A stretch of DNA of 36,285 bases. Origin: Chrysochromulina tobinii. Lineage: Eukaryota; Haptophyta; Prymnesiales; Chrysochromulinaceae. The notes beneath the pieces are model-generated. The model was given only the letters and a program-made list of their open reading frames with translations. It was not told where the DNA came from and searched no databases. The DNA is taken from positions 1-36,285 of the forward strand of contig JWZX01001576.1 in assembly GCA_001275005.1 (NCBI GenBank). The letters are read 5' to 3'. How positions within the stretch are numbered: the first letter of the stretch is position 1; the number at the start of each line of letters is the position of its first letter. The position numbers and the translations under genes were made by a program. Shown here piece by piece: positions 20,685 to 34,990 of the stretch.

Positions 20685-21782
20685 ATGATGAAAGTGCTCA
20701 TCGCGATTCTTCTCGCCGCGCCAGTCGCCGCCGCCGCCACCGCAAATTTGCGTGGGCGCTTGGTGCATTGATGCACCGCAGATTAACCTGACCGCATTCG
20801 GCTTTCCAAGCTGTTTTAATGATTGTGGAGCGACCATCTTGGAGAAAGCATTTGGCTGCAACTTCTGTGCGCAACCGGAGGTGGCGCCATCAACACGGGT
20901 TGCGCCACTTCCTTATGCGCGGATTGCCTGGGACCTGGCAAGCAGCAGATGTGCGCCTTGTGCAACGCCTACAAACTAACTTTGACGCCGCCAAAATCCA
21001 TCTTTGATGCGTACACTTGCCCCTCCCTTGGGCCACTGACGTGCGACACGATCAGGGCGGGATTCGAGGGTTGCACCAACGACTGCAGCCAGGCTGACTA
21101 CAAGAACATCCTGACCGTTACTCTCCCCTTGTTCATGACTACTACCGCGGAGATTGCTCAGTACACCACTCTCCGGGATACCTGCACTGTCCTTCCTCCC
21201 AGTCCGCCGCCCCCGCCGCCGGCGGCGAAGGCCGCCGACCCATGCTTCCCCAGCGATGCGCTCGTCACGATGGTGGACGGCACGTCGCGCCGCCTCGACG
21301 CGCTCCGCGCGGGTGACACCATCGTCGCCGCCCGTGCCGACGGCGCCCTCACCAATGACATCGTCTCTCCTCTCTCCCTCGCCGACGCGGATGTGAAGGG
21401 CACAAGCTTTGTGGTCCTCACGACGGAGTCTGGCCGCGAACTCACGCTGACGCCCACGCACCACGTGCCGGTCGGCGCCACGTGCTGCGCCAACCTCAAG
21501 GAGGCCAAGGACATCGTTATCGGCGAGACTGTCTATGAGGCAGTTGTGAGCGCTGCCGTGCATGCCACGCAGGTCAAGAAGATTGGCTCGGTGACCAAGT
21601 CAGGCCTGCACTCGCCGGTGCTTACGCACGGCGCGATGCCGATCGTGAACGGCGTGGTGACGTCCTTTGACTCCATGGAGATCGTGCGCCTTGCCACCTA
21701 CGGGCTGCCCCTGCTCGAGGCGACTGGGCTCACCAACACCTTCCGTGATGCTGTCCTCGCCCAACGCAAGTACATTGCCTAA
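20685..21782 (+). CDS. Secreted Cys-rich protein with C-terminal Hedgehog-type Hint (Hog) domain
   Basis: ATG 20685 begins a signal peptide (MMKVLIAILLAAPVAAAATA). The Cys-rich region must then be read in another frame from about 20740 to 20880 (PQICVGAWCIDAPQINLTAF, FPSCFNDC) before returning to the first. Two short GT-AG introns, 20724-20781 (58 nt) and 20881-20948 (68 nt), both phase 0, would join everything into a 323-residue protein; two compensating indels are the alternative. The Cys-rich part has an internal repeat (GFPSCFNDC and GFEGCTNDC). After a short Pro-rich hinge comes a Hint domain: catalytic Cys in DPCFPSDALVTMVDG, the TxxH block in LTLTPTHHVPVG, and GLHSPVLTHGAMPIVNGVV, which matches the end of Hedgehog Hog domains. 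Such domains cleave themselves at the Cys and release the N-terminal part. Substrate and acceptor molecule are unknown. Confidence 0.8.
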
Positions 21783-28402: not shown

Positions 28403-29589
28403 TGGGCGGGCCTAGCGCCGTGCGCCCCTCACAGGTGCGATCGAAAACGTGGGACAAGGGGACAAGGGCCTTGGTTCCAAGGGGGAGCCGGGGGGGGCAC
28501 GCAGCCCACAATTCCCGAGGCCGGGTGTGATGCATACCCGTGTGAGCCAATAAGCCGTGAGCTCCCGTACAGTGTGCCCTTCAAGCTATGTGTGTTTGGA
28601 CGAGTATAACACAATGTGCGGAAAGGCCAAAGAAGCGGTTCACACGGCATTGGCAAACGGGGTCCGGTCGCGATCGCGCGTCGCGGGCGCGCCGACACGC
28701 GATCGCGCGGTCGCGGGCCGCGCCGACCGCGCGTCGTCGGGCCGCGCGCGGGGCCGATTAGTTCGGCGCGGCCAGGATCGACGGAGGATGTGCTTGGTCC
28801 GTGCTCGTGTAGGAAGCGGTCTGCGCTCGTGCGGTGTGCGAATACCACAGTGAGCCTTCAATGCGCCCGTCGATGCGCCCGGCCATTCACGACCGACACC
28901 CTGGGTGCTGCAGCCTACCGAAAAGCCTACTACACTCACCACTTGGAGTGCGCGCCATGTATATCCCCGAAGGACCATCCTCAGCCCTGGATTCAAGACG
29001 GTCTCAAAGGTGACTCTCGGGCGGCCGCCAGCCCCTGTCGCCTCCGTTGGCCGCGCACCTGTCGCGGCAGGGGGGTCGCCGCACTGAGTTCAAAATCAGG
29101 TGGTGGGGATAGTGTCTTAGTGTGTGAATCCAGAAAGAATACCCTCCCCTACCCCTTTGGGTCAACCACTGAGTTCAAAATCAGGTGGTGGGGATAGTGT
29201 GTGAATCCAGAAAGAATACCCTCCCCTACCCCTTTGGGTCAAGCGCGGTGTTTCTGACGTGCTGTCTGCTGAAGGGCTGTCGCTCCCCGCCCGGCCCCGC
29301 TGTGGAGTTACGTAGTTTGTGAATAAAATTATACCGCCGGTAGGTTCGAGGAGCAGCTAGCCCTTGGCATATATGTCCAGAGCAGTGTGATGCACCTGGT
29401 CCAAGTCGCAAGTGTGGCGTGCTTCATATGATTTACAGCCTTAGAAGGGACCCTGGAACGCCTGGTTCCCTTCCACCCTTGACCTTCCACCCACTTGTGG
29501 CCTCAGCCTCGACAAGGTTCGTCCCCAAAGCCGAACGGCGCTCAAGACGACGCTCAACATGACGCTCAGAACGACGCTCAGAACGACGC
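28403..29589. other. Gene-free region with tandem repeat and G-rich tract
   Basis: 1.19 kb between the Cdc48 stop and the bestrophin stop. It starts with a G-run cluster (28450-28497: GGG, GGGG, GGG, GGGGG, GGGGGGGG) that could form a G-quadruplex downstream of Cdc48, then a CpG-dense block with short CGCGATCGCGCG-like palindromes (28665-28760), then a two-copy 75-83 bp repeat (29083-29242). No conserved protein or RNA was recognised. Confidence 0.5.
29083..29242 (+). repeat. Two-copy tandem repeat, 83 and 75 bp
   Basis: Copies at 29083-29165 and 29168-29242 both run from ACTGAGTTCAAAATCAGG to CCCCTTTGGGTCAA. They are identical except for an 8-base insertion (around GTCTTAGT) in the first copy. 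The precision suggests a recent duplication. Confidence 0.9.
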
Positions 29590-29600
29590 TCAGAACAGTC
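29543..29600 (+). repeat. 12-nt repeat overlapping the bestrophin stop codon
   Basis: Four to five copies of GACGCTCAGAAC (some degenerate) run through the 3' end of the bestrophin gene; the last unit contains its TGA stop (minus strand, 29590-29592). Confidence 0.8.
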
Positions 29601-31236
29601 CTTCGATCGCGGCCATCTCGGCTGGGGGTGCCGAGATCGCCTCCTGGAGATTGGCCATGATGATGTTGCACAGTGCCGTCATCGGCACGATCTCGAACGG
29701 CTGCTCCACCTGTGGGGAAGGGGAGCGCCGTGGTGAGCACTTGCATGCCGGGCGAGATCTCGAACGGCTGCTCCACCCACCTGGACACCCACTTCCTCGA
29801 TGCCCACGAAGATGTACACAATCAACGAGACCCAGAGGGCAATTGAGATCGGCGACATCGCGCCCGCGAGCACGAAGGGCAAGGTCGCGATCCACAGCAC
29901 GAGGCTGCGCACCTGCATGCAATGAGGGAGGCCATCAGTGGCAATCGGTGGCACTCGGTGGCACTCGGTGGCACTCGGTGGCAATCAGTTAGCAATCGGT
30001 GGCAATCAGTGGCCATCACAGCACGAGGCGGCGCACCACGTGACGCGACATGGTGGGCGGCACAGGCGACGAGAAGAGGCGCTCGCAGCCGCCCACGACC
30101 AGATTCAGATCCTCCAGATTCTGCTCCAGCTTCCGGTGCAGGTGGGCGGGTAAGTTCCCCGAACGAAATTGGCGATACAAGTTTCGGCGCAGCGCGCCCA
30201 GCAGCACGAGAGGTCGAGAACGCTGTTGGGACATCCACTCCGCCTCGGCCTTCGGGAGCAGTATGGAGAGCACGTTGTCCGAGTACACATCCGTATTTCG
30301 GATCGACGATGGTCCCGTCAGCTTCGCGTTCAGCTCCCAGCACCACGCTCCGAGGTACCTGATGAGGGATGCAATCAGCATGCAATCAGCATGCAATCAG
30401 TAGGCAATCAGCATGCAATCAGCATGCAATCAGCATGCAATCAGCATGCAATCAGCATGCAATCAGCTTCGCGTTCAGCTCGCAGCTCCACGCTCCGAGA
30501 CAGCGACACGTATCGCTGCGCCTGATGAGGGAGGCAATCAGCATGCAATCCGATACCGACACGTGTCCGCTGCGGCGCGCTTGGCTTCGGTCGGGCACGG
30601 CACGTCCGGATCAAAGAGCAGGGCCGTGGCGGCGTTCTGAGCGATCTCGCGGCACAAAAAGACGGCTCGGCCCCACAGCAGGCGTGCCTCGCTGAGTCGC
30701 TGGTACGTGTTGTTCGTCCGGAAGACGAGAAGCAGGCCAATCGCCGACCCGATCAGACCGTGAGGACCCGCCGCTGTGCGAGGAAGCCAGCGCGTCGGCA
30801 GTGACGCGACGAGGAACGCCCATGCCGATGCCGCGAGCATGATGGGCCAGAGTGCGGTCAGGATCGTCGAGTGGCGCCACGTGCGGATCGCCGCAAACCA
30901 GCGTCGGAAAGGCGGCCTGCCCGTGTACTGCTTCCACGTCTTGTGGTCAAAGAGCCGCGTATATGAAGGCTCGCCCGAAATGATGCCCGACACCTTGTAC
31001 ACAGGATTGAGACCGGCTGCACGCCACAGGCTCATCTGCACCTCAGGCGACTGATCCGATGGGCGGAGCGCGCGCACAGCTGCAAGCTGCGCTGAAAGCT
31101 CCTCCAGCACTGGGCGGACGGTGGTGGTTGCCAGAGGCGTGCCGCATCTTTGGATGGGTCGGACGATATTCATTCGGCCTCTCGGAGGCGAGACCACGAG
31201 CGCGCACATGCACAGGCCCATGGTGGTGACGATCAT
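29590..31236 (-). CDS. Bestrophin-like (RFP-TM/UPF0187) anion channel, four exons
   Basis: Exons on the minus strand: 31236-30557, 30358-30037, 29912-29781 and 29709-29590, joining to 417 residues with every junction in phase. Family landmarks: KTWKQYTGRPPFRRWFA and an RTWRHST segment before the first membrane helix (LTALWPIMLAASAWAFLV); LVFRTNNTYQRLSEARLLWG; RYLGAWCWELNAKL; the LVVGGCERLFSSPVPPTMSRH block, which matches the E-R-I-x-x-x-P-x-P-x-x-x-x-x-H core; LWIATLPFVL; and VGIEEVGVQVEQPFEIVPM, which ends the last helix with the E-E-I-G … E-x-P-F pattern. Algal homologues conduct chloride or bicarbonate, some in thylakoids. The chosen ATG gives MIVTTMGLCMCALVV, a possible signal or transit peptide; the frame continues upstream to 31446 without another ATG. 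All three introns show the duplicated-exon layout described under the intron entries. Confidence 0.88.
29710..29780 (-). mobile_element. Introner-like intron, bestrophin intron 3 (71 nt)
   Basis: Minus-strand intron from GTGGGTGG to CCCCACAG. After four bases it contains a 21-nt perfect copy (29776-29756) of the first bases of exon 4 (29709-29689, starting GTGGAGCAGCC). The rest is the shared core GCATGCAAGTGCTCACCACG plus a C/T-rich tract. It shares this core with primase introns 2 and 5. Confidence 0.6.
29913..30036 (-). mobile_element. Introner-like intron, bestrophin intron 2 (124 nt)
   Basis: The intron starts GTGCGCCGCCTCGTGCTGTG (30036-30017), a 19/20 match to the start of exon 3 (29912-29893). 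It continues with TGATTGCCACC-type minisatellite units and ends CCTCCCTCATTGCATGCAG. The ending is almost identical to that of primase intron 4. Confidence 0.6.
30359..30556 (-). mobile_element. Introner-like intron with nested copies, bestrophin intron 1 (198 nt)
   Basis: It contains a 37-nt segment (30499-30463) matching the start of exon 2 (30354-30318) with two mismatches. The segment is preceded by a copy of the end of exon 1 (GCAGCGATACGTGTCG), so it looks like the joined exon junction. About nine 11-nt TGATTGCATGC units (30369-30462) follow, then TCCCTCATCAG. A second TGATTGCCTCCCTCATCAG lies at the other side of the internal copy. Confidence 0.6.
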
Positions 31237-31552
31237 GGCGTCGCTGGATTCGTGAGGGTCGGGGGTACCAGTACCATGGTATGGGCAGCGAGAGGCGTCG
31301 CAGGATTCCTCGTGTGAACGTTCACACGACAGACGCGACAACCAGGTATGAAAACGACCGCTTTTCTTCACATTCCCGGATATGAACCTGAATGGACCCG
31401 GCGAGTATCCGTGAAAAACGGCGCGTCGCAGTCTACCGCGCGGCACACGATTCTAATTCGCGCTCACCGCTCCATAAGGTGGGGTGGCAGCCCCCCTGCA
31501 AACGCTGCCTGCCACTCCCCCAAAGTCCGCAGCCCGCAGCGTACTGCTTTGA
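31237..31552. promoter_or_regulatory. Upstream region of the bestrophin gene with an 18-bp perfect palindrome
   Basis: 316 bases between the primase stop and the bestrophin ATG. CGTGTGAACGTTCACACG at 31311-31328 is a perfect 18-bp palindrome about 75 bp upstream of the ATG. A second palindrome, TACCATGGTA (31272-31281), lies between it and the gene. Both are plausible binding sites for a dimeric regulator; this is inferred from symmetry and position only. Confidence 0.45.
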
Positions 31553-34500
31553 TCATTCCGCGGCGAGCTCGGCCTTTCGGGCGAGCTCCGCGGAGATCGT
31601 CGCGAGCTCATGAGCCGCACTCTTGACCTCCGCGGCGTGCTCGGCGTGCGTGGCGTCCCATGGCGGCTTCGCTGCCGCCGCCTCCATCGCCGCCACAACG
31701 TCTTCCAAACGCTCCCGTGTCGCTCCCACCGCGGCGCGCGCCGTCGCGTACCTAATTAGGGTGGCACGCATGGGCTCAATCAGCTGCACGCTCAAGTCAT
31801 CAGCTGCCATCACAAGGCACCGTCGCGCACCGATGCTGTGTGAGGATGGTCTGCACGCTGATGAGGGAGGCAATCATGGGCTCATCAGCTGTCATCAAAG
31901 GGCACCGTCGCGCACCGATGCTGTGTGAGGATGGTCTGCACGCAAATCTCGAGGAGGCGAGATGGCAGCTCTTCCGATGACGGAGACGCCGGTAGCGCCG
32001 TGTCGGGCGTGATAGGAGACATCGGTAGCGCCGTGTCGGGCGCGAGGGGAGACATTTGTGGCGCCGTGTCGGGCACGAGCGCTTGCGACGACGCTGCGAG
32101 CGCCCACGTTCTGGCGAGGTACTGTAGGTCGTCACTCGGCTTGCGCAGCAGCTGCCACTCAGGGCACGAGAGCTCGTCTGGAGGCACCGACGCGTTGAGC
32201 CTCTCGAACAAGCTCGGAGCACTCAACTGTGAGGGCGGCTCGAGCAGCGCGGAGAGTAGCTGCCGTCGGCGCTCGGTGCGCATGGACACTCCCGCCTCGT
32301 CCGCCCTATTCTGATCCAACAAGCCGTAGAGACGGCACACCGCCGCCCCATACTCACGCACCCCCGGCCGCTGCAGCAGCACATGGAGGAGCAGCAGCTC
32401 CGCCTGGTCACGTAGACCGGCGTGCTCCAGCCCCGTACCTGTGGGTGTGAACGCGCTGTGGTGAGCACATGCATGCAAGGCCGGTCATCAGGTGGCAATC
32501 AACGTCGAGCTCCAGCTGCGTACCGCGTGAACGGGAGCCGGACACATTCGACCCGATGGCCGCCGCCGCCGCCGCCGCCGCCGCCGTGGTGGTGGTGGTG
32601 GTGGTTGTGGTGGTGCCGGTGGCGGCGGCGGCGGCGGCGGCGAGTCGGGCGGCAGTGGCGTCGGCCGGTTCGTTCGCGACAGCACAGATAGCACACAGAG
32701 GCAAGGAATGGAGCTCTGCCAGCGAGGGGGGCCGTGGCCGAAGTCGCTCATGTGCACACGATGACGTGGCGATCCAATGGAGCGTATCCGGCACGGCGCT
32801 CCAAACATAAAGCTCATCAAGCCTCACCTCGAGCTCCGCTAATCTCGCCAGTGGAGGTCGTGCAGCCGAACGTGCAGGGGCTCGCGCCGCCGAGCGCGCC
32901 GTCGTGGGCGCTGACGACGGCGCCGGCGCCGGCGCCGGCGCCGATGACGACGAAGCTGACGAAGCGGGGGGCGAGAGAAGGTGTAGGCTTGCGTGGAGGT
33001 CGTCGCGCAGCTGGGCAGCGAGCGTGTCGTCGTCGGCCGCAAGCAGCCGAGCGAAGAGATGGATGTGGATCGATCGCTCGACCGCGGTACGCAAGTGGCT
33101 GAGCAAGGCCACCAACTCCTTCACGCACGCTTCGAGCTGGCCTGTGGACCGGCTCGCTTGATACGGCGCGAGCACCGATCGTCCCACCCACTCGACCCAG
33201 GAGGGCGCCGTGTCGAGCACCTGCATGCAACGAGGGAGGCCATCAGGTGGCACTCCAAGTGGCCATCATACGCGGGAGCGTGGGCGCCGTGTCGAGCACC
33301 TGCGTCTCGAAGGCGCGTCCGGCCGCCTGAGCGGCCGCTGCGGCGCCATCGGGGCCGACCGCAAACGCGGGCTGCGAGCGGATGGCGCCACGCGATGCCT
33401 GCACGTACTCGTCCGGATCCTTGTACGGTGTCGGCATCGTAGCGATGCGCACGTCGATCCCGCGAGCGTTGAGCCGAGCGAGCGCCCCACTCTCATAGAG
33501 CCGACGCGTCGCCTGCTGACCGGCCTCATCCGCATCGAGGGCGAGGACGAGCGTTCGGGACGGCGCGCCCGCGAGCAGCGGCGAGATTGCGAGCTCGAGT
33601 TGGAGATCGGTCAGAGCGGTGCCCAAGCACGCAACAGCATACCTGCGACAGAGAGCGCCCAAGCGCACCTGAAGCGCAATCAGCGGCCATCAGTGGCCAT
33701 CAGTGGCCATCAGTGGCCATCAGCGGCCATCAGCGGCCATCAGCGGCGGCCAGCGGCGGCGACCAGCGGCGACCAGCGGCGACCAGCGGCGACCAGCGGC
33801 GACCAGCGCAACTCCGCGCACCGTATCCCGACCGAATGCAGCGCGATGGCGTCCATGTACCCCTCGACGATCACCGCGCGCCCCGCCCGACGCATGGCTC
33901 CTTTGGCGAGGTGGTACGCGTACAACGTACCTGTGGGGAGGAGAGGCGCCGTAGTGAGCACTTGCATGCGCGAGGTGGTATGCGTACAACGTACCCCCTT
34001 TCGAGAAGACGGGCGAGTCGATCGAGTTGAGGTACCTAATAAGGCAGGTCATCCGGAGGGCTCAGCTCACAGAGGTCATCACAGAGGCCATCACAGAGGC
34101 AATCACAGAGGTCATCACAGTTACTTTGGGTAGAGGGCCTCCCTGCCCGGTTCGGGCGGCTTGAGGGCGCGCCCGCCAAAGGCGATCACGCGCCCGTGCG
34201 CGTCGTGGATCGGAATCATCAGCCGCGCGCGGAAACGGTCGTAGCTCTCGCCGCCGGTGTCGATGATCAGCCCGGCCTGCACGCACGCGGTGCGCGACAC
34301 GTTTGGCTGGCTAGCGAGGTACTTGGTGAGCACCTTGCCGCCGGCCGCGAAGCCGAGGCCGAAGCGCTCGGCAAGCGCGTTGTCGATGCCGCGCGAGCGC
34401 ATCTGCTCCGCGCACAGCGCCGCGTCACTTCCGGGCAGCGCGCGCGCACGCCGCGCCTGCTGGTACGCCGCCGCGGCCGCCTCGTTCGCAGCGACGAGGG

Positions 34501-34990
34501 CCTGATGCTCGGCCGTGAGCGGCGGCGCTGCCGGCCAGCCACCGGCGCCGAGCTGCTGCGTGTCGATCGCGTCGGCGCCCTCCACGTCGTACCGGCGCGC
34601 AAGCTCGGCCAGCGCCTCTCCGGTCGCCATCCCTTCGTGATGCTCCAGAAAGGTGACGGCGTTGCCGCTCGCCTCGCAAGCAAAACAGTAGTACACGCCC
34701 TTTTCGTCGTTGATGGACATCGAAGGGGTGCGCTCCGTGCCATCGCCATGGAACGGGCAGCGCGCCATAATCTTGCCGCCCGAGGCCTGCACGTGCACGC
34801 CGCTGTCGGCGATCACCTCAGAAAGCTTCGCCGCGCGGTGCACGGCCTCTCGAAAGCTGCTCAGTCCGCGGCGACGGCCGGCGCCGCCATCGGCGCCCGT
34901 TGCAACCATGCGCAGCGCCTGCGACACAACGCGCGCAGGGAGCGCCCTCCGCAGCAGCGACGTCATGAGGAATAGCCAGACGCCGCGCAT
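31553..34990 (-). CDS. dnaG: DnaG-type organellar primase, seven exons
   Basis: Minus-strand exons 34990-34125, 34035-33995, 33930-33822, 33642-33300, 33220-32524, 32438-31942 and 31783-31553 join in phase to 927 residues. The zinc-binding domain has the CHC2 motif CPFH … YYCFAC (about 78-105). The DnaG core follows (AERFGLGFA, RLMIPIHDAHGRVIAFGG, then YLNSIDSPVFSKG across introns 1 and 2). The Toprim domain has EGYMDAIALH, LGTALT and the acidic LALDADEAG, then DPDEY. The C-terminal part (LDTAPSWVEWVGRSVL; RDQAELLLLHVLLQRPG) matches the bacterial helicase-interacting region but is extended by Ala/Thr-rich inserts. Bacterial DnaG is about 600 residues. The leader (MRGVWLFLMTSLLRRALPARV) looks like a targeting sequence, so it probably primes plastid or mitochondrial DNA. 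Introns 1 (34036-34124) and 3 (33643-33821) carry TGATGGCC-type minisatellites but no clear exon copy. Confidence 0.9.
31784..31941 (-). mobile_element. Introner-like intron with tandem copies, primase intron 6 (158 nt)
   Basis: The intron begins with a segment (GTGCAGACCATCCTCACACA …, about 57 nt) that is repeated almost exactly after TGATTGCCTCCCTCATCAG. The first copy ends in GCAGCTGATGAGCCCATG, resembling the start of exon 7 (CTGATTGAGCCCATG) after its acceptor GCAG. It therefore has the same building blocks as the other introns, doubled. Confidence 0.55.
32439..32523 (-). mobile_element. Introner-like intron, primase intron 5 (85 nt)
   Basis: The first 21 bases (GTACGCAGCTGGAGCTCGAC…, 32523-32503) match the start of exon 6 (GTACGGGGCTGGAGCACGCC…) at 17 of 21 positions. 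Then TGATTGCC, a TTGCATGCATGTGCTCACCA core and a CCCACAG end, combining motifs from both intron subtypes. Confidence 0.6.
33221..33299 (-). mobile_element. Introner-like intron, primase intron 4 (79 nt)
   Basis: The first 18 bases (GTGCTCGACACGGCGCCC, 33299-33282) are identical to the start of exon 5 (33220-33203). The intron ends CCTCCCTCGTTGCATGCAG, nearly the same as bestrophin intron 2. Confidence 0.65.
33643..33821 (-). repeat. Minisatellite filling primase intron 3
   Basis: Within this 179-nt GT-AG intron are about five copies of a GGTCGCCGCT unit followed by about seven copies of TGATGGCCGC/TGATGGCCAC. The second unit is the same motif that recurs in the other introns of this gene pair. 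Confidence 0.8.
33931..33994 (-). mobile_element. Introner-like intron, primase intron 2 (64 nt)
   Basis: The first 25 bases (33994-33970, starting GTACGTTGTACGCATACC) match the start of exon 3 (33930-33906) with one mismatch. The rest is GCATGCAAGTGCTCACTACG plus a C/T-rich tract ending CCCCACAG, closely matching bestrophin intron 3 in another gene. Confidence 0.65.
34036..34124 (-). repeat. Minisatellite in primase intron 1
   Basis: This 89-nt GT-AG intron contains four to five units of CTCTGTGATGAC/CTCTGTGATTGC, related to the TGATKGCC motif in neighbouring introns. No copy of the downstream exon beyond GTA is visible. Confidence 0.75.

Follow-up and report, generated by a model that had tools for sequence, protein, structure and literature searches.

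A dispersed family of probable introner-type introns with long target duplications in the nuclear genome of the haptophyte Chrysochromulina tobinii

It has long been asked how genomes acquire introns by the thousand, and two adjacent genes of the haptophyte Chrysochromulina tobinii raise it in a concrete form. We analyzed a 36,285-nucleotide (nt) stretch of this nuclear genome (assembly GCA_001275005.1, contig JWZX01001576.1, positions 1 to 36,285; hereafter the window), in which a bestrophin gene and a DnaG-type primase gene are interrupted by nine introns. A sequence-only reading of the window had claimed that several of these introns consist of a copy of the start of the downstream exon followed by a repeat that recurs in both genes, and that the repeat belongs to a dispersed family. 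Are these introns the product of one mobile element, and how would such an element yield an intron? Our results make it very probable that they belong to a dispersed introner-type family with long target duplications, a judgment that concerns the family and excludes the route by which it is copied. A short repeated element, landing in genes, appears to be the source of many introns in this alga.

We placed all nine introns on the minus strand with GT-AG boundaries, and their removal gives full bestrophin and primase reading frames with stop codons (Table 1). Solved bestrophin structures matched the spliced bestrophin protein across all three junctions (best E-value 2.2e-22), a Prymnesium parvum protein is 64% identical to it, and other haptophyte proteins match it too. 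The core of the spliced primase shows the CHC2 zinc finger, DNAG_N and Toprim domains; of its six junctions, the first three lie inside the best PDB alignment, which is gap-free at the junction. The exon-start copies quoted in the sequence-only reading were reproduced in all three bestrophin introns and in primase introns 2 and 4. For bestrophin intron 3 the copy stood but the donor did not: because the 67-nt boundary breaks the protein frame, the true donor was placed 4 nt further upstream, at CAG|GTGGGT. The copy proposed for primase intron 5 is visible, although its score of 13.2 is just below the cut-off of 13.4 described below. Primase introns 1 and 3 contain a minisatellite like that of the A element described below, and repeat scans found no exon-start copy in them. 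The layout proposed for the introns was retained, except that bestrophin intron 1 and primase intron 6 were found to be compound, with two elements each. In both, the second A element lies across the older 5' splice site and has its own duplication (58/61 in primase intron 6; in bestrophin intron 1 these boundaries were read by eye). In neither compound intron does the duplication of the second insertion start with GT, which shows that this start is not shared by all insertions.

Two types of element recur in these introns. The B element is ~40 nt long and consists of GCATGCAAGTGCTCAC, then a pyrimidine tract, then CCCCACAG, whereas the A element is a minisatellite of the CTGATTGC type with the usual end CCTCATCAG. 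Both had been proposed as subtypes and both are present, but the split between them is not sharp, since the A motif GATTGCCACTGATGA directly precedes the B core in some copies. An automated count detected this longer B form in 2 of 38 copies, and we recognized it by eye at C40, C65 and primase intron 5. Within the window, the B core matched five times with ≤ 3 mismatches, compared with 0.6 matches expected and with none of 100 shuffles reaching five; two of the five (3 mismatches each) are A-type acceptors joined to GTGC. The A end matched twice, compared with 0.04 expected. Repeat scans of the rest of the window gave no further element-bearing intron, in agreement with the claim that the pattern is confined to the two genes.

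We then counted both elements in the whole assembly, which comprises 53.15 Mb in 2,253 contigs. With ≤ 1 mismatch, the B core GCATGCAAGTGCTCAC occurs 1,907 times (914 + 993) and the A 3' end GATTGCNTCCCTCATCAG occurs 2,959 times (1,436 + 1,523), whereas the reversed-pattern controls gave 0 + 2 and 0 + 0 matches. These counts may be lower bounds; they also count at least one locus two times, as it was assembled both as C65 and as C498. The genome-wide search thus turned up thousands of further copies with controls near zero, as the claim of a dispersed family had anticipated. The spread is patchy. Among 20 unselected 10-kb stretches, five contain A ends (≤ 2 mismatches; 32 copies, of which 18 are in stretch L038) and five contain B cores, one copy each, that of L043 being doubtful. 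Identical B strings, from core to acceptor, occur between different flanks on unlinked contigs (C37 and C421; C537, C393 and C608; C8 and C248), and the mobile unit therefore spans approximately GCATGC to CACAG. The 3' end of B is exact and its core starts mostly at GCATGC, while the filler before the core (38 copies) is heterogeneous and 0-28 nt long, with 62 nt in one copy. The genome therefore holds what characterizes introners, many sequence-similar introns at unrelated positions.

The target duplication was measured in 293.5 kb of non-redundant DNA, made up of the B-core loci, the 20 unselected stretches and the window. We aligned the sequence after the element AG to the upstream sequence and took as cut-offs the 99% (B, 13.4) and 98% (A, 16.6) points of mismatched-pair nulls. 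A duplication above the cut-off accompanies 61 of the 109 element copies, comprising 34 of 49 for B and 27 of 60 for A. Leaving out compound or tandem cases reduced the 61 to 56 cases; L055, which is the same locus as C65, was also excluded from counting. The duplication in these cases, counted from the acceptor, has a median length of 30 nt (quartiles 25-37, range 14-60), and A and B elements are alike in this respect. The introns themselves have a median length of 82 nt (10-90% range 68-96). The two copies of the target have a mean identity of 0.93 and are perfect in 9 of the 56 cases. We discarded a correlation between duplication length and element length (rho -0.47), which is partly an alignment artefact.

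The boundaries of the duplication are specific. It starts with GT in 47 of 61 cases and with GC in 7, and in the 56 cases the preceding base is G in 89%, with A at position -2 in 54%. Genome-wide, GT directly follows the element end at 374 of 440 B ends and 884 of 1,318 A ends, compared with a background of 5.2% after any CAG in the 293.5-kb sample. Insertion blind to sequence should leave copies in neutral DNA with other flanks in the majority; the excess of GT therefore suggests that the element may target (A)G|GT, a suggestion drawn from element ends wherever they lie. We also scanned for repeats without reference to the motifs, reducing 155 repeats to 67 clean ones by dropping arrays or repeats with element motifs. 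Out of 256 possible pairs, GT/AG was the commonest left boundary (21 of 67, compared with a mean of 2.05); GG/CA came second (20) and represents these joins in the adjacent register. The opposite layout, in which the element starts with GT and the second target copy ends with AG, looked persuasive by eye at C1 (L001), C88 and L032:1704-1810. We do not claim it because the 6 GT/AG cases among 67 right boundaries do not stand out from other dinucleotide pairs.

The layout that had been read from the window, with the donor supplied by the duplicated exon and the acceptor by the element, holds in this larger set. The element would insert at (A)G|GT in an exon and duplicate 14-60 nt of the target, and the intron would then consist of the first target copy, which starts with GT, and the element, which ends with AG. 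The exon copy would give the 5' splice site, and the element would give the pyrimidine tract and the 3' splice site, together with CTCAC or CTGAT, which we take to be a branch-point-like motif. Removal of the intron would restore the original coding sequence. In a typical intron, roughly one third (median 30 of 82 nt) would be copied host exon, with a prefabricated 3' splice module making up the remainder, so that a G|GT within an exon can be turned into a donor.

Several observations weigh against this interpretation. No duplication above the cut-off was detected for 48 of the 109 element copies, and the null maxima of 25.3 and 20.1 exceed the respective cut-offs of 13.4 and 16.6. GT does not follow 434 of 1,318 A ends (about a third) and 66 of 440 B ends. 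A short open-frame test failed to separate true joins, open in 40 of 49 cases, from joins shifted by one base (39 of 49 and 39 of 49), although we note that this test is uninformative because the DNA is G+C-rich.

Protein continuity and intron length suggest that the introns are spliced. Lengths are not a multiple of 3 for eight of the nine window introns, the exception being bestrophin intron 1, and for 32 of 49 tested introns. Stretch L038 contains a GTPase-like gene with many such introns, whose relatives also carry an HSP20 domain (PF00011). The hand-joined protein of this gene is gap-free at five conserved junctions (KKV|STKG, PVK|VENE, YFL|CVVN, EQE|VMDH and SRH|VILA) in alignments with Prymnesium, Blepharisma and other proteins. 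Conserved proteins were thus recovered at three bestrophin, three primase and five L038 junctions.

We compared the bestrophin and L038 genes with database records of their relatives. Bestrophin relatives P0018, P0025, P0029, P0030 and P0032, with 51-56% identity and longest contigs of 6.0-17.7 kb, are each listed as one protein that is unbroken at the three intron positions. Relatives P0121, P0122 and P0124 of the L038 gene, with 79-83% identity and longest contigs of 6.6-8.1 kb, are likewise listed as unbroken proteins. The sequence-only reading had held that the same introns in distant relatives would speak against it. The uninterrupted listings are in its favor, but the gene caller is not stated per record, and these could be spliced predictions or cDNA contigs. 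Four further records (P0002, P0004, P0009 and P0016) match bestrophin exon 1 at 94-100% identity yet continue into differing intron 1 sequences, and some record sources are therefore not spliced predictions. Such differences between near-identical records point to turnover among strains or close species. The turnover may be recent, and data from populations might reveal fresh insertions.

Table 1. Features of the two intron-bearing genes in the window, and contigs encoding both reverse transcriptase and endonuclease domains
Feature	Position	Strand	Length	Element or repeat	Exon-start copy (exon positions; identity)	Basis
Bestrophin gene, coding span, 3 introns	29590..31236	-	417 aa when spliced			Protein matches
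Bestrophin intron 1, compound	30359-30556	-	198 nt	Older A element ~30359-30462; second A element ~30522-30550	30463-30499 (30318-30354; 35/37)	Repeat alignment, splicing into frame
Bestrophin intron 2	29913-30036	-	124 nt	A element + minisatellite ~29913-30016	30017-30036 (29893-29912; 19/20, or 20/21 on recheck)	
Bestrophin intron 3	29710-29780	-	71 nt	B element 29710-29748	29756-29776 (29689-29709; 21/21, or 22/22 with the shared G included)	
DnaG-type primase gene, coding span, 6 introns	31553..34966	-				Start-to-stop frame after splicing
Primase intron 1	34036-34124	-	89 nt	12-nt minisatellite		
Primase intron 2	33931-33994	-	64 nt	B element 33931-33969	33970-33994 (33906-33930; 24/25, or 25/26 on recheck)	
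Primase intron 3	33643-33821	-	179 nt	Minisatellite		
Primase intron 4	33221-33299	-	79 nt	A element 33221-33281	33282-33299 (33203-33220; 18/18, or 22/22 with GCAG included)	
Primase intron 5	32439-32523	-	85 nt	B element 32439-32476, A motif just before	17/21	
Primase intron 6, compound	31752-31915	-	164 nt	Second A element ~31858-31882	Looser copy	
Reverse transcriptase and endonuclease domains: C367, C767, C914, C962, C1004, C1323, C1586, C1728, C1778		Same strand				

How the element is copied admits several explanations, some of which would also dispense with a mobile element altogether. It is extremely improbable that the pattern is an assembly or repeat artefact. The assembly is in many fragments and contains a duplicate of at least one locus (C65 and C498), but the intron boundaries fit the conserved proteins, bestrophin exon 1 recurs in independent database records that continue into intron 1, and the reversed-pattern controls are near zero. 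Plain tandem duplication of an AGGT-bearing exon, with the minisatellite growing later, would fit the repeats that have AG|GT inside both copies (mid class); it is hard to reconcile with the same foreign element sitting between the copies at unlinked loci, and we regard it as very unlikely. A non-autonomous DNA transposon resembling a miniature inverted-repeat transposable element (MITE), mobilized by a transposase that duplicates an unusually long stretch of target, is the usual reading for most introner families in the available sections of a survey (PMC9860276), and the fairly constant B ends are in keeping with it. We nonetheless find it distinctly unlikely here, as the duplication is variable (14-60 nt, median 30) where a short one of 3-9 bp is expected, and a comparison of GCATGCAAG with CCCCACAG shows no terminal inverted repeat (assessed by eye; transposase families were not searched for). 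A serious alternative, though on balance an unlikely one, is that the same introners spread through template switching during replication or repair, resembling microhomology-mediated break-induced replication (MMBIR). A DNA end would copy the 3' part of an introner and return at an upstream AG|GT, and the stretch between would be duplicated. The variable duplication length, the G and A that precede the duplication, the mixed fillers, and the tandem and nested units of copy plus element at C40, C88 and L058 would all fit such a process. However, donor exon beyond the AG is never carried over in aligned copies, and the AG|GT context is equally what splicing selects.

The route that we favour, tentatively, is target-primed reverse transcription by an enzyme of the long interspersed nuclear element (LINE) type, acting on an RNA that would end at the intron AG. 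In target-primed retroposition of LINEs and of short interspersed nuclear elements (SINEs), the target duplication is variable in length and the 3' end is fixed. Target priming fits better than a transposase because of the variable duplication length, the exact 3' end, the ragged 5' side and the lack of visible inverted repeats. The family resembles LINE/SINE retroposition both in its variable duplication and in the presence of LINE-like domain pairs in the genome. There are 26 RVT_1 matches genome-wide, 22 of them over the cut-off, and reverse transcriptase and APE-type endonuclease domains lie within ~1.4 kb of each other on nine contigs (Table 1). Five of the nine share an open-frame length, and the RVT_1 matches in C962 and C1323 are below the cut-off. 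To judge from these domains, the nine loci are probably LINEs, and some are possibly intact. Against target priming, the B copies lack a 3' tail, whether A-rich or of repeats, and their 5' end lies mostly at one place (GCATGC), unlike random truncation. No LINE is tied to the element.

It is also possible, though doubtful, that the element is a half-intron retroposon that propagates itself. The spliced-out intron RNA would be reverse-transcribed from the element AG where an exonic AG|GT is nicked. Copying would be confined to the 3' half of the intron (branch point, pyrimidine tract and AG), and the target duplication would serve as a fresh 5' half. Each new copy would instantly be an intron that releases template RNA again. 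If true, this would be an intron-gain cycle unlike that of DNA-transposon introners and unlike reverse splicing.

Some arrangements of the element stand apart from the single insertions. Tandem units of exon copy and element, two in a row per site, are found at C40, C88 (L029/L030) and L058, which suggests repeat insertion or slippage between copies. At ~1220-1920 of C36 (L015), long duplications surround other fillers ((GAATGT)n and ACTTG-rich sequence), and AG|GT lies inside the duplicated stretch. We considered viral spread and rejected it. Two scans of IMG/VR gave two matches and one match; those in L052 and L053 are chance-like, with no duplication in the stretches examined. L051:4350-4554 (IMGVR_UViG_3300027760_000958), listed as viral, ends in a real-looking B element, CACAG|GTGAG. 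By eye, the rest of the L051 contig is prokaryotic or viral in appearance, and we suspect a chimeric assembly more than carriage by a virus.

Other features were also recorded in the window. Low-complexity repeats lie near 7.8 kb, and a 20-nt repeat at 1.2/1.4 kb lacks GT/AG. Between genes, two perfect 34-nt copies 85 nt apart (29082/29167) occur within a longer repeat at 29082-29252, with no tie to the elements. An open frame at 20823-21782 has a Hint (hedgehog/intein) module (PF01079, E-value 8.7e-22). No tRNA and no Rfam match at the gathering score were found in the window, and three folds of element RNA scored no better than shuffles.

We compared the family with known systems. Target duplications in earlier introner families are 3-9 bp in the sections available of the introner survey (PMC9860276), and the 14-60 nt found here agree with the sequence-only reading's remark that the length is unusual. 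Family 1 of Symbiodinium microadriaticum, as described there (PMC9860276), likewise takes its donor from the target copy and its acceptor from the element, and has many dispersed copies; it differs in having a 4 bp duplication and terminal inverted repeats, of which none are visible here. The Chrysochromulina sp. introners in the same source share a haptophyte host and the absence of terminal inverted repeats, but their duplications are 4 bp long and their 5' splice site lies in the element, the opposite of the layout here (PMC9860276). According to the accessible part of PMC7789003, the introner elements of Amoebophrya are also repeated introns with direct repeats at their borders, although with direct repeats of 3-5 nt, inverted repeats of 8-20 nt and non-canonical splice sites, unlike the introns here. 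Direct repeats at intron borders have been read as insertion footprints (PMC11782384, in part), which is comparable with the repeats here; those repeats are 4-30 bp long (mean 11.4) in 213 assorted introns, as opposed to one dispersed family with a median of 30. Introner candidates are reported in mirusviruses, with no duplications described in the available portion of that source (PMC12768974), and introns of introner length are noted in Pelagomonas in the accessible text of PMC9481584. We found no description of introners with duplications this long in the literature searched, which leaves most subscription journals outside, and we do not claim their absence from print. As given in its available sections, the survey required introns to resemble each other at either end, to within five exonic or ten intronic bases of both boundaries (PMC9860276). 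The introns here fail this filter, which is a survey filter and not a definition, because the 5' part of each intron is locus-specific. The filter probably misses such families, and introners with long duplications may be under-counted. The family in C. tobinii is real and widespread, a variant of introners set apart by long, variable target duplications.

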